From: Antedon mediterranea | Taxonomy: Eukaryota; Echinodermata; Crinoidea; Comatulida; Antedonidae | Length of the DNA stretch: 64,000 bases | NCBI RefSeq assembly: GCF_964355755.1 | Contig: NC_092671.1 | Coordinates: 38,271,304 to 38,335,303, forward strand | Reading direction: 5' to 3' | Shown here: piece after piece, positions 52,001 through 53,041 of the stretch | Numbering within the stretch: the stretch's first letter is position 1 | How the letters are laid out: every line of letters starts with the position of its first letter | Notes under the pieces: generated by a model | The model's input: only the letters and a program-made list of their open reading frames with translations | Told to the model about the DNA's origin: nothing | The model's database searches: none | Program-made: the position numbers and the translations under genes

Positions 52001-52444
52001 TATAGTTGCAATAATGCCTAAAGCTCTGTCTACATTATCAAACTTTACGTGACAAAAACATGTGATGTGCCTATATATGGACATGATGATGTCATATCAC
52101 TACCATATTTAGGCACATCATGACTATGTTTGGGCACATCACACTTTTTTGTCACATAAAGTTTGAAAGTATAGACAGAGCTTTAGACACCTGATTCAAA
52201 CAACTTGTAAACATTCAGTATTTGTATAACAAAAACTAACATTAGGTCAGACAAATTATATTGTACTTTATAATGTAAATGCCATCAATTTAATAATTAA
52301 TATTACATTCTCTTTACCAAAATTGACAAGCTTTTTTATTTACCGAAACAGATGGTAGAGACAATATTCAAAGCTGTTTTGGAATTAATAGAAAGGAATG
52401 ATGGTACCTCGCCAAAGACCGATAAGGATTGTACCATTCTGTAA
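49073..52444 (+). CDS. RHEB: Rheb small GTPase, 184 aa
   Basis: Seven exons on the plus strand: 49073-49124, 49460-49531, 50831-50981, 51166-51222, 51399-51446, 51682-51763, 52352-52444. Phases close to 185 codons, the same length as human RHEB. Rheb-GTP activates mTORC1 at the lysosome. Seen directly: P-loop GFRSVGKSS with the Rheb-specific arginine at residue 15 in place of the Ras glycine 12; switch I [17 protein letters not shown]; NKID for guanine specificity; ESSAKKNE. The C-terminus DCTIL gives a CaaX box CTIL at 181-184; the final leucine would favour geranylgeranylation, whereas vertebrate Rheb ends in methionine and is farnesylated. Intron 6 has a GC donor (GAG then GCAAGT). Intron 2 carries a 906-bp TIR element. 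The stop codon lies within the first unit of a long minisatellite. Confidence 0.96.
49543..50448. mobile_element. TIR element with 8-bp target duplication in RHEB intron 2
   Basis: Ends read GGCGCTAG and CTAGCGCC, continuing as about 270-base inverted arms (for example TTTCTATGGAGCGCCAAAAG and its reverse complement at 50203-50222). Both flanks carry AGTATTTA (49535-49542 and 50449-50456). The left copy overlaps the intron 2 donor GTAAGT. The superfamily is unassigned; hAT, P and others make 8-bp duplications. No open frame inside. Confidence 0.85.
52019..52186 (-). mobile_element. TA-MITE copy in RHEB intron 6
   Basis: Ends TAAAGCTCTGTCTACATTAT and AGTATAGACAGAGCTTTA, reverse orientation. 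Confidence 0.8.
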
Positions 52445-53041
52445 AAAGGATTGTACCATTCTGTAAAAAGGATTGTACCATTCTGTAAACAGGATTGTAC
52501 CATTCTGTAAACATGATTGTACTATTCTGTAAACAAGATTGTACCATTCTGTAAACAGGATTGTACCATTCTGTAAACATGATTGTACCATTCTGTAAAC
52601 ATGATTGTACTATTCTGTAAACAGTATTGTACCATTCTGTAAACAGGATTGTACCATTCTGTAAACATGATTGTACTATTCTGTAAACAGTATTGTACCA
52701 TTCTGTAAACAGGATTGTACCATTCTGTAAAAAGGATTGTACCATTCTGTAAACAGGATTGTACCATTCTGTAAACAGGATTGTACCATTCTGTAAACAG
52801 GATTGTACCATTCTGTAAACAGGATTGTACCATTCTGTAAACAGGATTGTACTATTCTGTAAACAGGATTGTACCATTCTGTAAAAAGGATTGTACCATT
52901 CTGTAAACAGGATTGTACCATTCTGTAAAAAGGATTGTACCATTCTGTAAACAGGATTGTACCATTCTGTAAACATGATTGTACTATTCTGTAAACAGTA
53001 TTGTACCATTCTGTAAACGGGATTGTACCATTTTGTAGACT
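52426..53041 (+). repeat. 22-bp minisatellite starting in the RHEB CaaX codons
   Basis: About 28 units of 22 bases, core GGATTGTACCATTCTGTAA. The first unit is the RHEB coding end itself, encoding DCTIL and the TAA stop; later units are in the 3' UTR. Unit variants (ACCATT or ACTATT; AAAA or AACA; GGATT, TGATT or TATTG) recur in blocks, which suggests higher-order amplification. The minus strand is open in all three frames across the array because three units make 66 bases; this is an artefact of the repeat. Confidence 0.95.

Follow-up and report, generated by a model that had tools for sequence, protein, structure and literature searches.

The RHEB protein must carry its CaaX box to activate mTORC1 in cells (PMC7255682), so a hypermutable repeat lying on this box looks dangerous. 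Such a repeat was predicted at the RHEB coding end of Antedon mediterranea. The question is where it came from and how it is tolerated. In this study, the window (the whole stretch of 64,000 nucleotides analysed) and its genome assembly were investigated. The anatomy of the array shows how the repeat can be tolerated.

RHEB gene and protein

Seven coding exons at 49073–52444 were joined by a splice model into a protein of 184 aa (Table 1). Its C-terminus is ...DGTSPKTDKDCTIL, ending in KDCTIL, and is followed by TAA at 52442–52444. The protein was compared with the PDB, using a query identical to the model except for one residue at the exon 2/3 junction. The E values were 3.6e-69 for Rheb, 2.6e-52 for RhebL1, and 7.2e-35 for Rap1b, the nearest non-Rheb protein. 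Rheb was a closer match to the encoded protein than Ras or Rap was, consistent with a Rheb-type GTPase. The sixth intron has an apparent GC donor instead of GT (GAG/gcaagt, 51763–51769).

Human Rheb has 184 aa, is farnesylated, and ends in CSVM (PMC7255682). The protein found here has the same length, with the CaaX box at the equal place and a terminal CTIL as a predicted prenylation signal. By the usual rule, Leu at the X position of CaaX leads to geranylgeranylation (PMC9141697), and the CTIL of this RHEB predicts that modification, unlike the farnesylated human Rheb. No second RHEB copy or pseudogene was seen among the scored genome matches, the next best of which were about 39% identical or less, and a copy of this kind was rejected as the source of the array.

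Table 1. Features of the RHEB locus, in window positions.
Feature	Position	Strand	Basis or remark
RHEB coding exon 1	49073–49124	+	tblastn with human RHEB and splice model
RHEB coding exon 2	49460–49531	+	tblastn with human RHEB and splice model
RHEB coding exon 3	50831–50981	+	tblastn with human RHEB and splice model
RHEB coding exon 4	51166–51222	+	tblastn with human RHEB and splice model
RHEB coding exon 5	51399–51446	+	tblastn with human RHEB and splice model
RHEB coding exon 6	51682–51763	+	tblastn with human RHEB and splice model; GC donor after
RHEB last coding exon	52352–52444	+	splice model and PDB match; ends GAT TGT ACC ATT CTG TAA (D CTIL stop)
28 × 22-bp minisatellite	52425–53041	+	no indels; units 2–28 in predicted 3' UTR
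Array unit 1	52426–52447	+	final Asp codon, CaaX codons, and stop codon (52442–52444)
Possible degenerate partial unit, 3' edge of array	53042–53051	+	GGCTTGTTCC, 8/10 like unit start; by eye
Candidate poly(A) signal AATAAA	53383–53388	+	sequence motif; first canonical signal beyond array

Anatomy of the array

Tandem Repeats Finder gave an array at 52425–53048 with a period of 22 bp, 28.4 copies, 93% matches, and 0 indels. Phasing by hand gave 28 ungapped units spanning 52426–53041, the start being given as 52425/6. A minisatellite consists of several head-to-tail copies of a unit longer than about 10 bp, and the RHEB array (22 bp × 28.4) is one. It would also be a VNTR if its copy number differed between individuals. 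A 19-mer from the unit occurred 28 times in the window at no more than 3 mismatches, where shuffles gave an expectation of 0.05, and an array of this kind is expected by chance in shuffled sequence essentially never. The repeat call, the hand phasing, and the seven-exon model agreed that the DCTIL-TAA end of RHEB is the first of about 28 tandem units, as had been proposed. As a correction to that proposal, the array begins inside the codons AAG GAT, so the repeated peptide is (K)DCTIL.

The unit consensus was GGATTGTACCATTCTGTAAACA. Units differed from it at 0–2 positions in 27 cases and at 3 in the last unit. Unit 28, at the 3' edge, was the most diverged, and unit 1 was identical to unit 2. 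Variation among the 28 units was confined to seven positions (1, 2, 10, 14, 19, 21, and 22). A block structure of the variants had also been claimed. The overall order of unit types in the 28 units did not differ from shuffles (p 0.20–0.36), and the claim stood for one recurring pair only. The pair, a unit with T1 and T10 followed by a T2 unit, occurred three times and accounted for each of the 3 T2 units (p 0.0014, post hoc). Repeated local block amplification is therefore weakly supported.

As an inverted repeat the unit is imperfect, with 7 of 9 pairs matched. Of random 22-mers drawn from the window, 6.7% reached that level, and a palindromic unit was rejected as the driver of growth.

Codon content and frame geometry

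Read in the register of unit 1, all 28 units encoded [D/Y]CTIL-stop, with D in 25 and Y in 3. The prenylation signal and stop are thus present in every unit, as the original prediction stated. It had also proposed that a unit gained or lost could replace the CaaX codons of RHEB with no loss of function, since any unit can supply the same peptide in phase. Simulated whole-period deletions within the array bore this out, with CTIL-stop kept in 8,319 of 8,319. Whole-unit deletions kept it in 405 of 406 and abolished it only when the whole array was removed. These results support the neutrality of whole-unit gain or loss for the RHEB protein.

A further property goes beyond the earlier proposal. 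The unit length of 22 is not divisible by 3 (22 mod 3 = 1). Consecutive units therefore fall in consecutive frames, and each of the three reading frames is closed by CTIL-stop. Whatever its frame, a ribosome reaches CTIL-stop within about 3 units, apart from stops created by some variant units. The effect of single-base changes abolishing the RHEB stop was computed; all seven yielded a 22-residue extension with the end ...KRIVPFCKQDCTIL, that is, CTIL again. Readthrough past the stop into the array would yield the predicted peptide KGLYHSVKRIVPFCKQDCTIL. Simulated indels of 1–2 bases in the last exon gave a CTIL end in 137 of 348 cases with the array and in 0 of 348 without it. The three-frame closure and the stop-loss and indel outcomes are properties of the sequence and are not evidence of selection.

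Within the CTIL-stop codons, the units varied at three sites (unit positions 10, 14, and 19), and every change there was synonymous. The probability of this by chance was about 0.02 when all changes were taken as equal (12/45 synonymous) and 0.10 when only transitions were allowed (7/15). The pattern would fit the copying of units from a first unit under selection, but the events are too few for more than a hint.

In a diversifying coding minisatellite such as those of PRDM9 and CEL, several units are translated in frame. The RHEB array is not of this type, because translation stops in unit 1 and the 22-bp unit is not a multiple of 3. On the - strand, a stop-free frame of 244 aa runs through the array (52368–53102); it most likely arises as a side effect of the 66-bp (3-unit) coding period.

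RNA folding and 3' UTR

By prediction, units 2–28 lie in the 3' UTR, where the array could influence mRNA fate, as first proposed. Besides the AATAAA in Table 1, ATTAAA at 53102 was the other candidate poly(A) signal. No Rfam match was found near RHEB within 48500–56000. Folding of the array region gave z = -10.9 against dinucleotide shuffles. Of 60 permuted-unit arrays matched in composition, 6 folded at least as stably, and a special RNA fold of the array was rejected on this ground.

Origin of the array

The array is probably a local minisatellite that was seeded by the RHEB coding end and grew into the 3' UTR by slippage or unequal exchange. A founding duplication would have taken in the terminal 15 coding bases of RHEB with a few bases beside them, covering the CaaX codons, the stop, and the beginning of the 3' UTR. 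Slippage during replication or unequal exchange may then have extended the array into the 3' UTR. Unit 1 would be kept by selection on the RHEB protein, and the other units would be free to vary. Gain or loss of whole units would be invisible to the protein, with any unit able to take the first position. Three-frame closure with CTIL-stop would be a geometric by-product of the 22-bp unit. One assembly and one haplotype were covered, and instability of the array is assumed.

That the array grew from the terminal codons, as originally suggested, is upheld in part. A coding seed is probable, and the direction of growth is unreadable from the array alone. We infer growth from the coding end in preference to a foreign repeat because no other array of the unit was found and the protein has the canonical length of 184 aa. 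In the genome, the 19-mer at no more than 2 mismatches had 28 matches in the array and 19 elsewhere, against 13 for a reversed control. Three of the outside sites were inspected and all were single copies. With outside matches near the control level, insertion of a dispersed or mobile repeat into RHEB was not supported by the genome searches, which scored only the best candidates and passed over very frequent words. They found no other array of the unit, although further ones may exist. In the literature on RHEB C-termini of relatives and on stop-spanning repeats, nothing directly comparable was found.

The opposite direction was also considered. An older 3' UTR minisatellite may have spread to the left into the coding end, or reached it by recombination, so that the original C-terminus was replaced and the CaaX box came from repeat DNA. 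All units encode CTIL-stop, so the array by itself gives no direction, and CTIL, with its predicted geranylgeranylation (PMC9141697), differs from the CSVM end of human Rheb, which is farnesylated (PMC7255682). However, the protein matches human Rheb exactly in length, with its CaaX box where expected, and a random repeat would need to provide Cys-x-aliphatic-x-stop in the correct frame. CaaX boxes also vary among species without any repeat, and this replacement is unlikely. An error of assembly in the array or its length is very improbable. The number of units in tandem arrays is often misassembled and a single assembly was available, but the flanks are unique, distinguishable variant units occur throughout, the window has no runs of N, and the assembly is chromosome-scale.

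A selected array was judged improbable. Such an array would restore CaaX-stop after stop loss, frameshift, or readthrough, or its repeat RNA would control the RHEB mRNA. The seven rescued stop losses, the indel rescue seen only with the array, the synonymous sites, and the folding z-score speak in its favour. However, any stop-containing repeat that is not a multiple of 3 has the same frame property, and selection is not needed; three synonymous sites are too few events at these probabilities; and the z-score mainly reflects the tandem nature of the array, as its fold was equalled by 6 of 60 permuted-unit arrays. It is more doubtful than any of these readings that the array is a maintained C-terminal fail-safe, which would keep the same prenylation signal at the end of translation after unit exchange, stop loss, readthrough, or some frameshifts, with some RHEB protein carrying 22-residue extensions ending in CTIL.

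Repeats in the genome

The eukaryotic, chromosome-scale assembly consists of 354 Mb in 18 contigs. Arrays with a period ≥10 and ≥4 copies were sampled in 200 kb from 20 other places. The sample contained 20 arrays (about 100 per Mb) with 7.2% coverage, falling to about 2.4% when one 10-kb satellite block is set aside; the window contained ten arrays. In that block (sample L043, G000:C10:9000001-9010000), the entire 10 kb is an 88-bp satellite array of about 115 copies. With minisatellites this dense, some stop codons should lie within arrays by chance. With an assumed gene number of about 20,000, random placement would put a few percent of stop codons, hundreds genome-wide, inside arrays, and selection would lower this figure. 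A single case is not surprising. The exceptional character implied for the repeat is weakened by the common minisatellites and by a fold not clearly unusual for the same composition.

Other repeats were observed in the window. Palindromic MITE-like elements of about 160 bp flank the array at 52015–52185 (last RHEB intron) and 53200–53370 (downstream). The downstream element has copies at 90–95% identity all over the genome (best 40 of 3,623 candidates scored), and 21-bp repeats internal to these elements explain many Tandem Repeats Finder rows in the window. A 1,178-aa open frame with about 30 EGF-like domains and an internal 114-bp tandem repeat lies at 34069–37605 on the - strand. At 20712–22991 on the + strand, a 759-aa open frame with no Pfam match contains a 39-bp (13-codon) minisatellite at 21732–21989.

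The RHEB array is probably a neutral, attractive curiosity in a repeat-rich genome rather than a proven mechanism. If orthologues confirm it, the array would be a clean natural case of a stop-containing repeat, not a multiple of 3, growing without cost from an essential coding end. It would also be a natural test of the three-frame closure of an open reading frame.

Comparison with known systems

The RHEB array resembles minisatellites or VNTRs (units >10 bp) in its head-to-tail variant repeats, which overlap a gene and arise in that class from slippage or recombination (PMC3899988). It differs from them in general in that one unit holds the coding end and the stop, and the unit is not a multiple of 3. 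The mouse PRDM9 zinc-finger minisatellite also lies at the 3' end of a gene, and some of its repeats hold a stop, always as the last repeat (PMC3890296). However, PRDM9 units are 28 codons long and are translated as zinc fingers, so that the protein varies (PMC3890296), whereas the stop of RHEB sits in the first unit, leaving the remaining units untranslated.

The 33-bp VNTR in the last exon of CEL (MODY8) is likewise a C-terminal repeat in which single-base deletions alter the tail (PMC9658959). CEL repeats are coding, with 11 codons each, and a frameshift leads to a different, shorter tail (PMC9658959); shifted frames in RHEB often return to the same CTIL-stop. The CTG repeat of DMPK is a 3' UTR tandem repeat with RNA effects (PMC3899988). 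The RHEB units, if transcribed, could in principle likewise act on RNA-binding proteins, but they belong to a different repeat class.
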